This document shows, piece after piece, positions 26,534 to 47,392 of a DNA stretch of 64,000 bases. Source of the DNA: Viridothelium virens (taxonomy: Eukaryota > Ascomycota > Dothideomycetes > Trypetheliales > Trypetheliaceae). The DNA is taken from contig ML991794.1 of NCBI GenBank assembly GCA_010094025.1, positions 248,001 to 312,000 on the forward strand. The letters are read 5' to 3'. A model generated the notes under the pieces. It was not told where the DNA came from. It worked only from the letters and a program-made list of their open reading frames with translations, and searched no databases. The first letter of the stretch is position 1. Each line of letters begins with the position of its first letter. A program made the translations under genes and the position numbers.

Positions 26534-29500
26534 TCACATTCTTCGGACCAGGGATCGCAATTGCTGAATAGAAATATGTCAGTGATCTGACGTACGCGCG
26601 TGCAGAAGGGATAAAGGCATCCTCTACTAACCTGCGATGATGATTCATTTGATAGTAGGAGAGACGCTAACAACTTCTTCCTATCCTGGATATTTATGAT
26701 ACGCTAGCAGTGAGACGAGTCAGCACAAGAGCGTTGTTCTTCGCGCCGCAGCTTCTGGTTGGCTTTCGGAAATTAAGGGACTTGCACTGACCTCTTCAAT
26801 GGAATCTTCCATGACGCAACGGATCGTTGTCACTGGGCGAGTCTGTCCGACGCGGTGGACTCGAGCCAAAGCCTGGTCCTCCAACGAGGGGTTCCACTGA
26901 GGTTCAAGCAAATAGACGCGAGATGCAGCTGTGAGATCAATCCTCGAGAACCAGCTCTGTCAGCCCGAGAGACTGGTGAAACGAGCAGGGCACGAATTCA
27001 CTTACCCGATAGCACCACACGAAATCGTTAACAAGATCGCTTTGGTCTCGGGGTCGTCGCCGAGGAGCTTCAGAGCACGCTTTCGGTTGTTGAGAGAGAC
27101 GTTGCCATCTACACGAACGCAACGAATGCCAGCTACCTCAAGAGCATGCTGCACCACGTCTAAGCTTGAAGTCCAGAAGGAAAATACCACACTAAGGACA
27201 CATTGCAGGACATTAGTCGAAATCCTACTTGCTTGTTGTGAAAGACTTGCGGAAGAAACGTTACCTCTTCTCGGCCGGGTTGGCCTGGATGTTTGAAACC
27301 ACGGTCTTGACTTTACTCGAGACTTGTTTTGTTTGATATTCAGATGGCTCAGGGGACATGGAGGACTCATTTGAAGTCAGTCTCGGCGTGAGCTGACTCC
27401 AAAGAAGAGGTCGCAACGTGCAAGGAGTAGCTCTGGGTCCACATGCACAAGGCCCTGCGAAGTCGAAATGGAGAATATTTGCACAACTGGAACAAAACGT
27501 ACGCAGACAAGAAGTGTAATAGACAGTCGGGGAAACAGTCAGCCCGTCAGAAAAGGCGTCAGCTTCCGACACATTGACTGCCTGTAGGCAGTGCTCACAG
27601 AAAATGGCGCCCATTGATAAACGAGCTCCAAGAACCTCCAAGGTCATATCGCCACCCATGATGTTTGATCGCGTTCGAGTTGGGTGTGAAGATCTCTTGC
27701 CAACGCCCAAATTACACGCTAAACGTAGCCGCTGTATCTGCTGGATTGCATTGAGCCAAACTCCGCCCGTGCCATAACGTGTCTTTGAAGCATCGTCAAG
27801 CAATTCTACGACTGGTTGCTCAATTTTACGGTAATAAGCTTTCTCCTCGGGGCTGAATGGGACGCGGATGATTTGATCATCCCTCGGAGGTAGCTCCACG
27901 GTAGAATTCTTCAATCGGCGTATCATAATGCAAGAAAGAAGCCTCTTGAACTTCTCAACAGCTTCTTCAAAATTCCCATTTCGCCATGGTTCGGACAAGT
28001 CGTCGTCAAATTTCTGTGTATTATCGTAGGGATGAAAACGTAGAAACTTCAGCAGCCCAAGGAAATCGGTCAAGCTGTTTTGTATAGGCGTGCCGGAAAT
28101 GGCCCATCGATATGTTGCATGCAGGGAGGCAGTGACCTTAGCAGTTGCGGTCGAGCAGTTGCGAATGACGTGTGCTATTCTATCAGGATCTTTTATCATC
28201 TTTGGCAAGGTGTTAGACCATACCTTCGTCAAGAATAATACGATTCCAGTGGAGTGAGAGGATGGAATCATTGCCAAGCTGCCCCTTTCGCTGCTCACTT
28301 TCGACCGTTTGGTAAGTGGTCAGGACAATGTCTGGTGTTTTGGTAATTACTGTAGGTTTGAAGCGGCTTGCACCATGATGCCTAAACCAAGTAATCTTAT
28401 TCGGAACCGAATGCCTCGCAGGACTCAGCGGTGTTCAGCGTCAGTGTCATAGTAGAGACTCACCTTTCTATTTGAGCCTCCCACTCCGAAAGCACTATTG
28501 CACGGCACATTAGCAACTCTGGAGCAAATTGTTGAACATCGTCTTCTTTCCTCATACCATTAGGAGGCACTACGATAAGTGTCGAGCTGAGTGAATTGCC
28601 ATGCTGAGAGTGGCGGTCATCTTTGTTCGTAGCTTTCCCGGCTACAACTAAAGCAATCATGCTTAAAGTTTTCCCAAGACCCATTTCATCCGCTAGTATA
28701 CCACCTCTCCAGGCAGGAGGTCGCTCAAGCTGTCTTTCACCTGACACGGTATTGACATATCTGGACAGTTAGCACTGACAAATGAATTAGCGAACTCGCT
28801 ACTTACATGGCGGCGCCTGCAAAGTTTGTTTCTTTGACCCAAACCCCTGCACCTGTTCTCTCACGTCTGAGGAGAAATGTAAGCGCCTGTCGCTGATGTC
28901 TTGTCATGATTGGTCGTCAGTGTCCAATCTTATCTGCTAATGCATCAACTTACGCTTGCAATTGAGTTCGTAGGGTACTCGGCGTATCTGTTTCTTTTAG
29001 TGCCTCAGAAGTCTCGAAATGGGCGAGTACGTCCTTAGTCTGTCGTATTAATTTTTGCAGGACAGGCGGCTGTTCTTCACGTAAATGGAAGGTCATCGGT
29101 AAACTCCCATCGAGGCTTGAGAGGCAATGGGGGTTGCAGTATGGCACATTACGATCGCACCCCAAAGGCTCCTGCAAATAATGTCCACACTTTGCCACAA
29201 AATCTCCCACATCATCAGCCCTGCCTTTGGGACCGTACAAGATAACTTCCAGAAGCCCAGAGGCTTTTCCGCGCCTATTTAGCCGCGTCTCTGTCGATAT
29301 AGAATAGCATAATTGAAGCCCAATTTGCCCATCAGTCTCAAGCTTGGATAGAGCCTCTGCCGCATGGGCATCTAATGTCCCAATAAGATTCCCGTCAGAG
29401 CAGTGATAAACTCTGTCATCGGGATCGAGGTATACTGGTCTCCGGGCTGGGGTTCGGAGGTCGACGGTGTGGGAGGGTAGGACTACGGGCAGGTCTATAA

Positions 29501-30271: not shown

Positions 30272-33200
30272 ATGACGCAGCAGGTCGCTCCCACCTCGCT
30301 TCAAGCCCGCAAAACCCTTCAAGAAGCCTTCGAGAGATTCAGCAGATCAGTCACGCCGGAGGAACGTCGTGACTTTAGCTCGACAAGTCTCGAAGACGTT
30401 AGAAATGCTGCAGTTCAGACCGAGAGGCAGCTTGCTGCCTGGCGATCTTTGCGAAACATGCGACGCTTGCACCCGTTTCTGCAAGGCTTGGAACGCTACT
30501 CCAAGTCAATTGAAGTCCTGTGCAATGGCACACCTTATCTTCCCTGGATATGGGTTAGTCTTGGTCGCATGCTGAGGGGTGCTCTAGCTAATATGTACTG
30601 CGTGCCAGGCTCCAATCAAGTTGATGATCCAGGTGAGCTTTTTTGAGGAACTGGCTGTGTCTTGATCACTGAACCAGTGTCAATCAGGTTTCGGCTGATT
30701 ACCTCCAAGCTTCGGACAGCCTGATAGAGGCCTATGGGAGGATCGCAGATACTCTGCCACGATTTGATCGCCTGAGTTCGGCCCTCAAGGCTGATCATAA
30801 CTTTCAAGCGGTCCTCGCATTCTTCTATGGCGACATTCTCGAATTTCATCGCCGTACATACAAATTCGTGCGTAGGAGTGGTGAGTCCGTGTTTTCCAAG
30901 CTCAACTGTAGCTAACTATGGCATTTCAGCATGGAAGACTTTCTTCAATTCTATGTGGGGAGGTTTTGACTCTCGATTTAGTTCGATATTGGCAAGATTG
31001 TCATATCATAGCGAGCTCGTTGACAAGGAAGCTATTGCGGTCAACGTTGCCGAGGCCACAGAGCGAAGGAAAGAGCAGACCGAGCAATGGGAAAAGGACG
31101 ACCAAGAAAGACAAGCGGCCCAGCTTGTTCGCGTTTTATCCTGGTTGGGATTAAGCGGTAACCCCCAAGCGGACGAAATTGACCGAATCTCAAAGGCTTG
31201 CCAACCTAATAGCTGCGCTTGGGTTACAGAACATTCTAAAATAAGGCTATGGATGAAGGACAGTCCAACCCATGCGTTGGTTTGGCTACATGGTAAACCA
31301 GGAGCAGGTAAGTCAGGATGTTGTGTCAGAGCAAAGACGTATACGGAGGAGCTGTACTAACTTTATCCAAAGGCAAAAGTGTCCTCTGTTCGAACCTTGT
31401 AAAATCAATGCAGTCTTCTAACGCTAATGTTTTCTATTATTTCTTTAATTATCGAGTGAGCGTTGCTGATAGCTCCGCCTATCTTCTCCGATCACTTGCA
31501 GCACAGATCATCCAGAAGAGCCCAGACCTTGTGGCCTATGTCCACGACGAATTCGTCTTATCTCATTTCACGCCATCTTTAAAGGCATTAAGAGATCTTC
31601 TTCCCCGGATTCTAGCTAGCAATAGTCATTCACACCTTGTGATTGATGGCATCGACGAATGTGATTCGAACGACCAGAAATTCATTACGGATGACGCCCT
31701 ACAGCTGCTATCAACTGATACATCCTCTCATATCTGCAAAATCTTGATATCTACCCGAGATGTACCCAATGTCGCTCGAATTCTGCGGAGAAAAACCAAG
31801 CTAACAATGTCGCTCTCTCTCGCCGATGAACATCAATCAATCAATCTATCTATCGAATGCTTTATCCGGACAAGACTTTCTGAGTTAAAGGACGATTTGG
31901 ACGAACTGGACCCTACTTGCGTCGCACGGCGTGATATTCAGCGCAAGCTTGTAGAAAAAGCGGATGGTAATATTTTGTCCGGACTGTTGTGTTTTGAGCT
32001 GTCTGATAGAGAATCTAGGCATGTTTCTATGGGTTTCACTGGTTCTAAACTCTCTGGAGAGTGTCTACAGCCCTCAAGAACTTCATGAAATTGTTGAAGA
32101 TTTACCATCGGATCTATCAGAGCTGTAAGGGCTCTCTCCGCACATATCTTCTCAATTATTAATTAAAGCCTCTATTAGGTATGAACGGATTCTAAGACGT
32201 ATCTGTGACGAACGTAATCCTCGGAATAAGGAGAGAGCGTCACGAATCCTACGATGGATCTGCTACTCGAAGAGGCCACTGACAAGGTTTGAACTGCTTC
32301 CAGCGTCTGCTCTTCATTCAGACGGGACAATTTTGGATGCTAGCAGCCTACCGAATGCGCGACTCCTTGAGATCTGCAAGCCTCTAATCGAGGAGCGATC
32401 TGATGGTTCCGTGACGTTTGTTCATTTCTCGGTCCAAGAGTATGTACATACGCACCAAAGAATCATCACTTTGACTGAAGGCCATAGGTTTTTGATGAAG
32501 TCTGCGACCTCTGTTTTCTTTCGGCCGTTAGAAAGTCACTGCAATATATCGTTTGCGTGCATGGCAACACTCTCGTCAGGCCTTGATCTTGTAGATCCTG
32601 AAAGCACTGAACAAAATCGCCTGAGGCATATTGTGAGTGGTGTGCATGGTTTGATCCCTTACGCAATCGAAAACTGGACTGAGCACCTCTTTCTCTACGC
32701 TTCTACGGGTGGCGCGTTTGAACAAGATCGGGCACTCTTTTTGCACCTTTCCTCATTCCTTAGCAAGCACAATAACTTACTCCATCTTACCAAGGTACAT
32801 GAAGAGAAGTCTGCTTACGGGAACGAACATGCTTCATTCAATCAACTAGACAAACGACTCAGATTGCTCGCTCATCTGCCCATACATGATTTGGTTCGAG
32901 AAATACTGCATATGCGTTGGTTGGCACGTCAAGAAGCTTGTGAGAGCGGAGAAGGTAAGCCTTCCGCAGAGACATGAGTTCTATGAAAGCTCGACGAGTT
33001 AGAAACATAGGCTAATTGAAATCATGATGTAGCTGCCGAGACTTACGCCTTCAATCACGATCGAACCCTCTTTACTAAACTCGCAATGGCTTTCAATTGT
33101 GGGGTACTCAGCCTTCTCGGCCAAAAGGAGGTGCCAGGCGTCGCGACGCTTACGCTTGATGCTTTCAAACAATTGTATGCCTCCTCGGCCTTCCGTTGTC

Positions 33201-34726
33201 GCTATCCGTCCTGTCCAAAAGTCCCCAATAGCTTTGCCTCAGACCGACTGAGGACTCAACACGAAGCAACACATTTGCGGCGCATCTTCTGTCAAGTATC
33301 CGAATGCCAATGGAATCGCATCGGATTCAAGAGTCACAAAGGGCTTCGTACCCATATGCGTAGTCATGACGAGAAAGCGATGGTCCCAATCCCAGCTAAG
33401 GTTCGTCGGATGGCTAATGAAAAAGTTGACGCATCGACCGCAAAGGACTCAGAACCTGGTCTCAAAGGCAACCAAGCCACGTCCAATCAGAGCCTGTCTT
33501 CTTCTGCTCCAACGCCGTCGGATGTGGACGATATGCTGGGCAATCTTCAATTAGATGACGTGTCTGAGCACTACAAGACTATTGGCGATGATTGGCACTG
33601 CATCTACAACCCGAGATATCTCCGCGAGCTCGACGTCAAGCCGGTTCACACCTTTATCCATCAGAGCGTTGTCACCTGTATCTGTTTCAGCTGGGATGGC
33701 TTCTTCGTGGCCACAGGAAGCAAACGCTCAACGCAGATTTTCAACGTAGTGACCGGCCAGTTATGCATGAGTCTGGTTGACAATTACCTACCTAAATATA
33801 ACGATCTATCTATTCAAAGTGTCTGCTTTAGCTCTGACGGCCGGGATCTGGCTACCGGTGCTGACGATGGCATTGTCAGGGTATGTGTATCGTTGTCTTT
33901 AGTCTGTTTTTATGCTCATGGGACTCTAGATTTGGCAAGTACCGGTCGGACGGATTCGGTATAGATTGATGGGTCATACACAGGACATACGCTCGGTCGA
34001 CTTCGCTAAGAACGCCAGCATCGTTGCCTTAGGGAGTGGCGACTGTAAAGTCCGTCTCTGGAGTACCACGACAGGGCAGCTGCAGATGACGCTCTCCGTG
34101 AGAGCTCGAATCAACTCGGTCGCTATATCCGATAATGGTCGCTGGGTCGCGGCTGGTCTACTCGACAATAGCGCGCGCGTATGGGATACAAGTACGGGTG
34201 TGCTGGTTTGGCACTTAGGGGGCACCGAATTTGACCCTAACGGTCACCACGGCGGCGTTTGCTCGGTGTGCTTCGACCCTGACGGCCTGTTTTTGTTCAC
34301 TGCCAGTAGAGACAAGACAGTGAAGATGTGGGATCTAACTTCCTATCTTGGCAGTGCGGGCCAATGCGTGCGGACATTCAAAGGCCACATCGTAAGCGCA
34401 GCCTCATGGCACTGTGAGACGTGTGCATTGCTAATCAATTGCTTCTAGGACTTTGTACTGAGCGTGACAACAATGCGTCAAGGAGAGCGGCCCTTGCTGA
34501 TTAGCGGTTCAAGGGACACAGGAGTACACTTTTGGGATTCAGATACCGGCAGACCTCTACTTTTCTTGCACGGCCACCGAGGCTCTGGTGAGTGTGACAA
34601 AGCTGTGAATGCACGTTTTATGTAGTTTGCTGATTACGCTGGACAGTTCTCTCAGTCTCAGCGAGCCCAAGTCGAGGCTTGTTTGCGACAGCCAGCGACG
34701 ATATGAGAGTCCGGATCTGGTCGTGA
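30272..34726 (+). CDS. NLR-like STAND protein: NACHT, two C2H2 fingers, Tup1-like WD40 propeller
   Basis: Join 30272-30553, 30609-30632, 30688-30880, 30930-31307, 31373-31966, 32019-32124, 32179-32954, 33033-33880, 33930-34391, 34449-34587, 34647-34726; 1293 aa. The N-terminal domain (to ~240) is the helical fungal STAND type (WIWAPIKLM, ALPRFD-like, DILEFHRRTYKFVRRS). NACHT ATPase: P-loop GKPGAGKS (288-295, split by an intron), Walker B LVIDGIDECD (~381-390), ISTRDVPN sensor, winged-helix region FVHFSVQEYV. Two perfect C-x4-C-x15-H-x3-H fingers follow (840-865, 871-896), a Ser-rich linker, then DDWHCIYNP and seven WD40 blades (~971-1293). The blades are diverged from each other, unlike the near-identical repeats of HET-E, and match Tup1 in phase and wording (ATGSKRSTQIF, SIQSVCFSSDGRDLATGADD, DFVLSV, VRIWS). 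Fingers, linker and first two blades share one exon. Likely an immune or allorecognition switch; the target is inferred. Confidence 0.9.
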
Positions 34727-45214: not shown

Positions 45215-45866
45215 TTCCTTGGAAGCGTGTTGGAAAAGCGAAGACCGGCCGGAGGGACGGCTCGAGGAAGATGCATCTTGGACACGGGTGCCTGTCTAGA
45301 TTGTCTTATAACCACTGATCTTCATTCACGGAAAAGCCTACAGAGTAAGGCTCCTGCATCAAGCTTATCTTAATCCGGCCGGAAAAATAGTTTCAGTCCT
45401 TGCATGCGGTTCCTCGTGGCGTCTGCGCGGAAATCGCTTGGGACTACCGTACCCTGTGGTATTGCAATTTTCTCGTAGTTATCCTCACCGGAAACTTCCA
45501 ACCGAGTGCCAAGTGGTCGTGTTCGCATTTGTTGCGAAGCGTACGACCGTCTACAAGAGATAGACTATTTATCTAATCCACTTCAGGTGTAGCCTGAAAC
45601 TTAGGTATTGCATTTTATCTTTCAATACGATGTATTGTAAGAAATCTATGTTACGACGCGCTCTATTCTAGCCTCAATTTAACAATGCGAGCCGCTCCAA
45701 GATGCAGAGGCTTTTCTGCAGCTCCCCCGCCACTATGAGCAATGGAGGCACAGTAATCTTGGGGTCCTCTACACACAGAATCATCTAATGTCTGTGTCAT
45801 TGCAGCAAAATTTTCTACTATGCCACGTTTTGTTCAGCATCATTTGCTTCACTGAAGCATCGCATC
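45215..45866. promoter_or_regulatory. divergent promoter between hydrolase and MFS exporter
   Basis: 652 bp between two divergent cluster genes. No TATA box or clear Zn2Cys6 palindrome could be picked with confidence. Confidence 0.4.
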
Positions 45867-47392
45867 ATGGTAACCTCCGAGTCCTCCGACAAAGCAGAGA
45901 AGGTCGCGGTTACTTTGGAGGAGAACATTGCCAATGGAAACATCGTCGAATGGAGCTTGCCCCATGATCCTGAGAACCCTCTCCAATGGCCCAGATCTCG
46001 AAAAATTGGCACCCTGCTGATCGTGAGCACTGGTGGACTTATCTCATTCTTGGGATCCTCAATGCTTTCACCCGCCGTGGACCTTGTTCTAGCTGATTTC
46101 CATGAAACTAACATAACCCTGGGTGTATTTGCTGTCTCTGTCTATCTTCTTGGATTGGCCCTAGGACCACTAGTTCTCTCCGGCATATCAGAAGTCTATG
46201 GCCGAGCCATTGTTTTTAATGTCTGCAATGTCTTGTTCTTGATCTTCAGCATCGCTACCGCGGTGCCGACATCATTGGGCATGCTAATTGCCTTTCGTCT
46301 CCTGATGGGGCTCGCAGCGTCTGCACCAGTTACTGTTGGTGGTGGAACAATAGCAGATGTTTTTGTTCCTGCAGAAAGAGGTAGGGCAACCTCTATATAT
46401 GCTCTTGGGCCAATTATTGGTCCCGTTCTGGCACCAATTGCCGGTGGATATTTGGCGGAGGCCAAGGGTTGGAGATGGGTGAACTGGCTGACAGTCATTC
46501 TGGTAATTCTTCAACCTTTCTTAGACGTTAGCTAGATCCGCAAGAGTTTGATCATCTAATGAGCCCTTTCTAGGCTGGATTTTTAACGATCCTCACCTTC
46601 ACTTGCTTCCGAGAGACGTACCATCCCGTGCTCCTAGAACGCAAGACCCGTCGCCTCCGAAAGGAAACAAACAACCAAAGCTTAGAGTCAAAACTAGCTC
46701 GAAAGACTACCCTTGGTCGTGCGATGAGATTTGCCCTTATACGACCCTTGAAGATGCTGTTCCGCTCACCTGTCGTTCTACTTCCTTGCCTGGCATTGGC
46801 GCTTATCATTGGATACTTATTCCTACTTTTTTCCACAATGGCGACCGTATTCCAACAGCAATATGGGTTTTCTGAAGGTTTGTCGGGGCTTGTCTACATT
46901 GGCATTGGTGTTGGAAACTTGTTGGGCACATATCTCTTCGCAATCTCCAGCGATAGAGCTGTCAAGAAAGCATCCGAGCGCGGTACTCTCAAACCAGAGG
47001 TGCGTCTTGTACCAGTCTCATTCGGAGGTCCTCTTGTCTGCATAGGATTTATCTGGTACGGCTGGACAATACATCAGCGGACTCATTGGATATTGCCCAT
47101 CATTGGTACAGGTATCTTTGGTGTCGGAGTAATGGCATTCGTTATGCCTATCACGACATACCTGATCGATGTATGGAAGTGGCATGCTGCCTCTGCAATC
47201 GGTGCAAACAATTTCTCGCGGAGTATATTAGGAGCTGTCATTCCGCTGGTGGCCTTCAAACTTTATGACAGACTTGGGTTGGGCTGGGGAAACAGCTTGC
47301 TTGCGTTTATCAGCCTAATCACAGCTCCTCTGCCATGGCTTTTCACAAAATATGGGGAGTACCTGCGGACTAGATTTCCTCTGGAGCTATGA
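45867..47392 (+). CDS. MFS exporter, DHA1 (12-TM) family
   Basis: Join 45867-46502 and 46574-47392; 484 aa. Marks of the DHA1 drug:H+ antiporters: PENPLQWPRSRKIG before TM1, motif A-like SGISEVYGRAIVF, motif C LGPIIGPVLAPIAGGYLAE, a central cytoplasmic loop FRETYHPVLLERKTRRLRKET that starts at the splice, and WKWHAASAIGANNFSRS in the second half. About 12 hydrophobic segments. Its position between the hydrolase and the CYP52-like P450 suggests that it exports the cluster product. Confidence 0.9.

Follow-up and report, generated by a model that had tools for sequence, protein, structure and literature searches.

Some plant nucleotide-binding oligomerization domain (NOD)-like receptors (NLRs), such as RRS1, carry integrated domains, and the C-terminus of the plant corepressor Topless is formed by WD40 repeats. 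Fungal effectors bind Topless; one of them, Jsi1, is described as contacting the C-terminal portion of the corepressor (PMC8126959). For fungi, the integrated-decoy case that we found in print is that of the CHK2/PRD-4 kinase, whose domain is reported in an NLR survey to be integrated in nine T-NACHT NLRs of a single fungal order, Sordariales, and is proposed there to be an integrated decoy (PMC12258605). The same survey reports C2H2 fingers in 34 NLRs and considers zinc fingers a possible standard module of the C-terminus (PMC12258605). Here we describe a gene at positions 30272-34726, on the forward strand, of a 64,000-nucleotide stretch of the Viridothelium virens genome (C24:248001-312000, hereafter the window). 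This gene joins a receptor of fungal NLR type to a seven-bladed WD40 propeller derived from the general corepressor Tup1. In the open-licence papers searched, we found no report of a Tup1 domain in an NLR. The presence of an integrated Tup1 domain in the receptor is well supported, and we consider with somewhat better than even confidence that the propeller has been re-specialised as a predicted sensor.

The receptor gene and the origin of its propeller

The propeller (residues 997-1293, 33668..34723) aligned with the solved C-terminal domain of yeast Tup1 (1erj) in a single stretch covering query positions 2-323 of 324 (E 4.2e-74), an end-to-end match that is too strong for chance and that bears out the full Tup1-type propeller of the initial annotation. 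The sole solved structure with a higher score, 2ymu, owes it to a sum over six overlapping repeat alignments. In the genome searched (30.7 Mb, 175 contigs) we found the organism's own TUP1 on contig C5 (locus L009), with a model of 599 aa and 7 exons. It is the only other Tup1-grade gene found in the genome; the next match outside the window and TUP1 loci had 32% identity (E 7.5e-18) in an exon-by-exon search. The window protein aligned with own TUP1 from the lead-in to the last blade, with 174/341 residues identical, and all three introns in the shared part coincide in position and phase. These are intron 8 (33881..33929, phase 0, residue 1068 = TUP1 366), intron 9 (34392..34448, phase 0, residue 1222 = TUP1 522) and intron 10 (34588..34646, phase 1, residue 1268 = TUP1 566). 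Because the three introns agree in this way, the alignment indicates that the propeller is a DNA-level copy of the 3' part of TUP1, lead-in and introns included.

The lead-in (residues 952-996, 33533..33667), placed by alignment to own TUP1, lies in the same exon as the fingers described below. The initial annotation had opened the Tup1 part at DDWHCIYNP. A Tup1 lead-in is indeed present, corresponding to NTLADLDPE...DWFAIFNP of own TUP1, but clear homology opens about 20 residues earlier, at about residue 950. The Tup1 N-terminus, a region for oligomerisation and Cyc8 binding, is absent over about 230 residues, the local alignment opening at TUP1 residue 231.

A hidden Markov model (HMM) built from seven native Tup1 propellers, own TUP1 included, gave the window 372 bits. 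P0020, a database protein of the same domain order, scored 290 bits. Of the 246 proteins listed across our database searches, those not of the Tup1 class reached at most 227 bits, and the top scorer among them matched the model only from position 99 onwards, beyond the lead-in. The Tup1 identity of the P0020 propeller was less clear in a single-sequence structure search, where 1erj came seventh (171.8 bits). In a tree of 25 rows, which omitted the database protein P0001 and the further propellers of tandem and kinase proteins, the window propeller grouped with the Tup1s and the propellers of the other NLRs (support 100/100), and the six WD40 control propellers fell outside this group. Mean identity between repeats was 29% in the window, where only 3 repeats were cut, 34% in own TUP1 and 53-74% in four NLR-type control arrays. 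The 1erj match, the HMM, the separate clade and the dissimilar repeats rule out an ordinary NLR WD40 array, in agreement with the initial derivation from Tup1 rather than from WD40 repeats of HET-E type.

The gene model, rebuilt from the sequence, reproduces exactly the frame first proposed, with 11 exons, 3882 nt including the stop and 1293 aa. Its exons lie at 30272-30553, 30609-30632, 30688-30880, 30930-31307, 31373-31966, 32019-32124, 32179-32954, 33033-33880, 33930-34391, 34449-34587 and 34647-34726 (stop included), and the introns, 49-78 bp long, are GT-AG in 10/10. The N-terminal part of the protein carries DUF7708 and then NACHT/NPHP3_N. After a middle region of some 400 residues come two C2H2-like fingers, and a linker then leads to the Tup1 lead-in and the Tup1 propeller. 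DUF7708, a domain of unknown function (residues 66-208, 30467..31054 with introns inside), scored 45.1 bits in Pfam (cut-off 25), and NPHP3_N (residues 261-421, 31211..31758, with intron 31308-31372 inside) scored 120.8 bits (cut-off 24.8). NACHT itself matched residues 283-433 with 41.2 bits (cut-off 26.7), and WD40 was also matched. Walker A (GKPGAGKS, residue 288) and Walker B (LVIDGIDE, residue 381) are both intact. The protein thus has an N-terminal domain, a NOD and a C-terminal candidate sensor in fungal-NLR order, as read earlier from a fungal STAND N-terminus followed by NACHT. From the position of the propeller as the C-terminal domain of an NLR, we infer that it has a sensing role.

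Intron 7 (32955..33032), whose splice the initial annotation had left for confirmation, is flanked by residues that align gap-free to the database proteins P0003 and P0020, and the database model P0001 shows the identical joined sequence; both comparisons support the splice. Downstream of it, exon 8 (33033-33880) carries the fingers, the linker (residues 898-951, 33371..33532, the least conserved part against P0003 and P0020) and the lead-in through to the first part of the propeller. Since the exon is unbroken over this span, the join between receptor and Tup1 lies within a single exon.

The fingers (residues 840-896, 33197..33367) have the spacing C-x4-C-x15-H-x3-H, twice. The classic C2H2 spacing is x12. 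The pair, initially described as two exact C2H2 fingers, is therefore less canonical than it was taken to be, and it falls under the Pfam cut-offs (zf-C2H2_4, 14.3 bits against 27 for a 77-aa piece). We nevertheless regard the fingers as real because the pair recurs in 8/8 sequences compared (the window, P0003, P0020, P0094, P0027, P0081 and two paralogue pieces), with the second always 31 residues after the first.

The two paralogues (C36:120.5-123.6 kb and C54:115.2-118.2 kb) match the receptor part of the window gene and carry the finger pair. Within stretches of 9.5 and 8 kb around them, tblastn at E 1 with own TUP1 and the window C-terminus as queries found no propeller, and a genome-wide propeller search gave no match on either contig. 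In a NACHT tree the group of the window type takes in both paralogues but not P0094 (87/93). As these two loci have receptor and fingers without Tup1, the fingers appear to be older than the graft and part of the receptor scaffold; they are ruled out as part of the graft. The window receptor thus has a domain that comes from a separate host gene and is absent in its sister receptors, so that its assignment as an integrated-domain NLR is well supported. The post-finger tail of the C36 paralogue (L020) includes a stretch loosely like the Tup1 lead-in, which could be chance or a remnant of a lost graft. We do not claim a remnant, since the score against the TUP1 lead-in was equalled by 48/2000 shuffles; the score against the window lead-in was equalled by 1923/2000.

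Related receptors and the number of captures

Two of the database searches returned their best 120 proteins only, so that the count of proteins with this order is a lower bound. One search gave 11 matches: P0094 itself, three Tup1-like proteins of basidiomycetes, all of them long, and seven WD40 proteins that were bacterial or unnamed; in another, the best 120 were mostly bacterial or unnamed WD40 repeat proteins. A Tup1 lead-in above 40 bits was found in 16 of the 246 listed proteins, as well as in the window and own TUP1. At least six NLR-type database proteins have a Tup1 propeller (P0001, P0003, P0020, P0094, P0027 and P0081), so the order of NACHT, C2H2 and Tup1-WD40 that the initial annotation proposed to look for recurs in further single proteins. 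NACHT is present in P0001, P0003, P0020 and P0094, and P0027 and P0081 begin downstream of it. Ankyrin repeats lie between fingers and propeller in P0094, P0027 and P0081; the best 25 families shown for the window and P0020 included none.

The best match, P0001 ('MAG: hypothetical protein Q9157_007389'), was 100% identical over 86% of the searched region. It comes from the bark lichen Trypethelium eluteriae (Dothideomycetes, Trypetheliales). Its model reads several other introns differently and breaks off on entering blade 6, at the site of intron 9 in the window gene. P0003, from T. subeluteriae, was found by alignment; its lead-in falls below 40 bits because the model lacks blade 1, and the end of the model resembles read-through of the last intron. 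The models of P0001 and P0003 both mask the full Tup1 propeller from domain surveys. P0020, from a Joint Genome Institute (JGI) source, has 1157 residues on a 4306-bp contig, and P0094 is from Trichoglossum hirsutum.

Between the window and P0003, identity was 139/161 (86%) in NACHT, 44/60 in the fingers, 44% in the linker and 105/209 (50%) in the propeller, or 101/190 (53%) when the misread tail was left out. Against P0020 the corresponding values were 87/161 (54%), 35/60, 31% and 105/284 (37%). In both pairs the propeller is the least conserved part after the linker. That it changes faster than NACHT is consistent with sensor-like evolution and favours the reading as a predicted sensor. Compared with the Trichoglossum type the pattern is reversed, with 26% identity in NACHT and 47% in the propeller, which is the result expected for propellers captured by receptors that had already diverged. 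The propeller of P0027 shares 262/350 residues with own TUP1, much like the Tup1s of Penicillium (260/353) and Zalaria (263/356), and this closeness fits a young or constrained graft.

Approximately unbiased tests (p-AU) bear on the number of captures. In a first propeller tree, which also left out the long-branched P0020, P0006a and the six controls, the five NLR propellers as one clade (p-AU 0.028) and the three ankyrin types (0.026) were disfavoured, and the window with P0003 and P0027 (0.398) was not rejected. A ten-row tree without P0003, P0081, P0020, P0241 and the tandem and kinase proteins gave 0.0425 for P0027 with P0094 and 0.0483 for the window with both; pairings of the window with P0094 (0.177), P0027 (0.394) or own TUP1 (0.426) were not rejected. 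The four Tup1 NLRs as one clade were rejected in the NACHT tree (p-AU 0.042). These tests lend mild support to at least two separate captures of the Tup1 propeller, and only mild because the groups were named after the tree was seen, several values lie close to 0.05 and the trees contain long branches.

In Marasmius tenuissimus and Marasmius sp. AFHP31, three proteins (P0006, P0166 and P0171) carry a protein kinase at the N-terminus, followed by two Tup1 propellers; the kinase was assigned by Pfam in P0006 and, from a similar N-terminus, by eye in the other two. The second propeller keeps 7/7 docking residues in P0006 and 2/7 in P0171. This kinase-borne graft parallels the NLR case. P0002 (Astraeus odoratus) and P0004 (Gymnopilus dilepis) have tandem Tup1 propellers and may be real fusions or merged models.

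The docking face of the propeller and the surroundings of the gene

On the top face of the Tup11 propeller of S. japonicus, the positions R1, R1-2 and D-1 have been defined for each blade, and isothermal titration calorimetry is reported to show that seven top-face residues matter for Fep1 binding (PMC3419727). We placed the docking positions by motif, and the assignment of the numbered residues to blades was made in the present analysis. Ten Tup1s served for comparison: own TUP1, P0034, P0045, P0238, P0239, P0241, P0117, the yeast protein and the first propellers of the tandem proteins P0004 and P0002. All ten, from yeast to mushrooms, keep 7/7 of the docking residues. The window keeps 1/7, P0020 0/7, P0081 4/7 and P0003 2/4 aligned. 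P0027 keeps 7/7 and P0094 6/6 aligned.

We then considered all invariant columns, defined as those with one letter in all lettered rows and at least 8/10 rows lettered, lead-in included. There are 133 in the ten Tup1s, 17 of them on the top face. The window keeps 5/17 of the top-face columns and 91/116 of the others (Fisher p 1e-4). Among the nine fused propellers tested for top-face loss (the Marasmius proteins by their second propeller only), P0020 (1/17 and 72/115, p 8e-6), P0171b (8/17 and 100/116, p 6.6e-4) and P0081 (9/17 and 90/115, p 0.035) also show an excess on this face. No significant excess was found in P0027 (p 0.27), P0094 (p 0.13), P0006b (p 0.22) or P0166b (p 0.25). Across the window blades R1 is kept in 1/7 and the adjacent R2 in 6/7. 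The comparison thus indicates that the Tup1 docking residues are mostly lost in the window copy and the scaffold is retained. The window protein has neither the N-terminal region nor the set of top-face docking residues of a functional Tup1 corepressor.

In fission yeast, the ordinary duplicates Tup11 and Tup12 are reported to have no significant differences on the top face (PMC2882346), so duplication alone need not alter it. In HET-E, positively selected WD40 sites have been placed on this same propeller face (PMC1805685). The top-face change in the window may reflect selection for a new specificity or a loss of constraint.

Elsewhere in the window, the stretch 35934-59480 beside the NLR gene looks like a polyketide gene cluster. 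By Pfam it contains a 4HBT thioesterase, a PhyH dioxygenase, an AMP-binding enzyme, two P450s, an FSH1 hydrolase and a large polyketide synthase, and a transporter of the MFS family was assigned by eye at 45789-47392. A fragment related to SNF2 helicases lies at 27261-28319 on the opposite strand, about 2 kb upstream of the NLR gene.

Interpretation and comparison with known systems

In the mechanism that we favour, the 3' part of TUP1, with its lead-in, propeller and introns, would have been added as a copy to the C-terminal end of a receptor of the order DUF7708-NACHT-C2H2, the usual site of sensor repeats. When captured, this domain would have mimicked Tup1 and so, we propose, served as bait for attackers of Tup1. 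Later the docking face would have been rewritten on an intact scaffold, so that the propeller might now read another ligand or a changed attacker. Ligand binding, modification or displacement on the top face would release the NACHT switch, and the released NACHT would oligomerise and fire the N-terminal DUF7708.

Several observations weigh against this reading. P0003 shows no significant top-face excess (3/10 against 40/74, p 0.19, in a model without blade 1), and in P0020 the buried R2 is also lost (1/7 kept). Top-face identity within the NLR lineage is 3/14 between the window and P0003, 3/21 between the window and P0020 and 0/14 between P0003 and P0020. For these pairs the comparison with the most variable Tup1 columns gives p 0.125, 1 and 0.098; with moderately variable columns the values are 0.042, 0.18 and 0.033. 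The comparisons are of amino acids, and a variable-column test does not separate positive selection from relaxed constraint, so that the top-face pattern would also fit a simple loss of constraint. P0001 and the window are identical over the first 225 propeller residues (225/225) and differ by six single substitutions in the receptor part, outside the stretches with differing intron reading; the identity therefore speaks against sensor diversification between two sequences taken as one species. Literature searches found no attacker of fungal Tup1, and we know of no output for DUF7708.

An alternative that we regard as unlikely is that the fusion is decaying, an old capture whose constraint has been relaxed and for which no sensing role is selected. 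The top-face change does not clearly exceed that of the most variable columns, and the absence of blade 1 and of the proper end from the database model of P0003 could be real damage or a modelling error. However, the window frame is open across 1293 codons with 10 canonical introns, its NACHT motifs are intact, 91/116 invariants off the top face are kept, and P0003 and P0020, with NACHTs 14% and 46% diverged, still have the order. Rather more doubtful is a receptor for allorecognition that, like HET-E and HET-D, would read allelic variants of a host protein at hyphal fusion, with no pathogen involved. Alleles of HET-E and HET-D are reported to differ in their WD40 domains and to recognise HET-C variants (PMC10197012), and the change here lies on the same propeller face as in HET-E (PMC1805685). 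Set against this, the window repeats are not near-identical (29% over the 3 cut repeats against 53-74% in the four controls), and there are zero differences between the window and T. eluteriae P0001 over the 225 propeller residues.

The initial annotation had offered two roles for the propeller, a faithful bait or an adaptor to transcription, and for the window copy both appear unlikely. Bait is disfavoured, since most docking residues of this copy have been exchanged (1/7 kept), as opposed to those of near-native P0027 and P0094. As an adaptor, the propeller would still recruit partners of Tup1 and the fingers would contact DNA, and activation of NACHT would thereby alter expression directly. 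We give this low probability, although fingers and propeller do stand in one protein, and the role is possible for the grafts of P0027 and P0094, which keep their docking residues. In the window protein the docking face is lost and the Tup1 N-terminus absent, and the oddly spaced fingers, below threshold in Pfam, belong to the receptor scaffold, being present without Tup1 in two paralogues. It is very improbable that the locus splits into an NLR gene with its end at 32977 and a second gene, for fingers and propeller, from 33086. Read-through of intron 7 does meet a stop at 32977, and an ATG lies at 33086. Residues 785-802, which would be non-coding under this split, nevertheless align gap-free to P0003 and P0020; P0001, P0003, P0020 and P0094 are each a single database protein; and the paralogues also have fingers behind the receptor part. 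The observation of the initial annotation is confirmed and its interpretation partly supported, and neither of the two outcomes named there as refuting it was seen in the comparisons made.

More tentatively, and at a probability that we place well short of even, Tup1 may be a guarded hub in fungi, captured more than once (in at least two NLR lineages of Ascomycota and in the Marasmius kinase lineage), with a faithful mimic first, its docking residues all intact, and later a rewriting mainly of the docking face. If so, effectors or viral proteins that attack fungal Tup1 would be implied, in parallel to plant Topless. The graded series from near-native P0027 and P0094 to the rewritten window and P0020 copies raises the questions of whether anything attacks fungal Tup1 and what ligands the rewritten propellers bind. 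The window receptor suggests that fungi, like plants, may build guards from proteins targeted by attackers. Repeat-based surveys could take such a propeller for an ordinary WD40 sensor and overlook it.

The window gene adds a general corepressor to the integrated parts of receptors, with donor gene, graft boundary and graft-free paralogues in one genome. It resembles Tup1/RcoA (yeast 1erj and own TUP1) in its lead-in and propeller and, for own TUP1, in its intron positions, but it has an NLR in front in place of the Tup1 N-terminus, and a docking face that appears rewritten. With RRS1 and Topless of plants, which involve another receptor class, it shares the copying of a potential effector target into a receptor; in plants, a corepressor with WD40 repeats at its C-terminus is bound by effectors. 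Like HET-E and HET-D of Podospora, it combines NACHT with a WD40 propeller as predicted sensor and has changes on the top face (PMC1805685, PMC10197012); arrays of HET-E type consist of near-identical repeats of another WD40 type, whereas the window has one Tup1 copy with mutually different blades in a separate clade. The closest likeness in fungi is to the CHK2/PRD-4 NLRs, also NACHT receptors in which a conserved host regulator has been copied to the C-terminus. The survey's suggestion of a finger module agrees with the finger-bearing paralogues found here, and the fingers that stand next to canonical repeats in its NLRs are all of another type, unlike those of our finger-ankyrin proteins (PMC12258605). 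In the CHK2/PRD-4 NLRs, as described there, the kinase was added to a complete tripartite receptor in a single capture, whereas in the window gene the Tup1 propeller itself stands in for the sensor repeats, there are signs of repeated capture, and the binding face looks rewritten.

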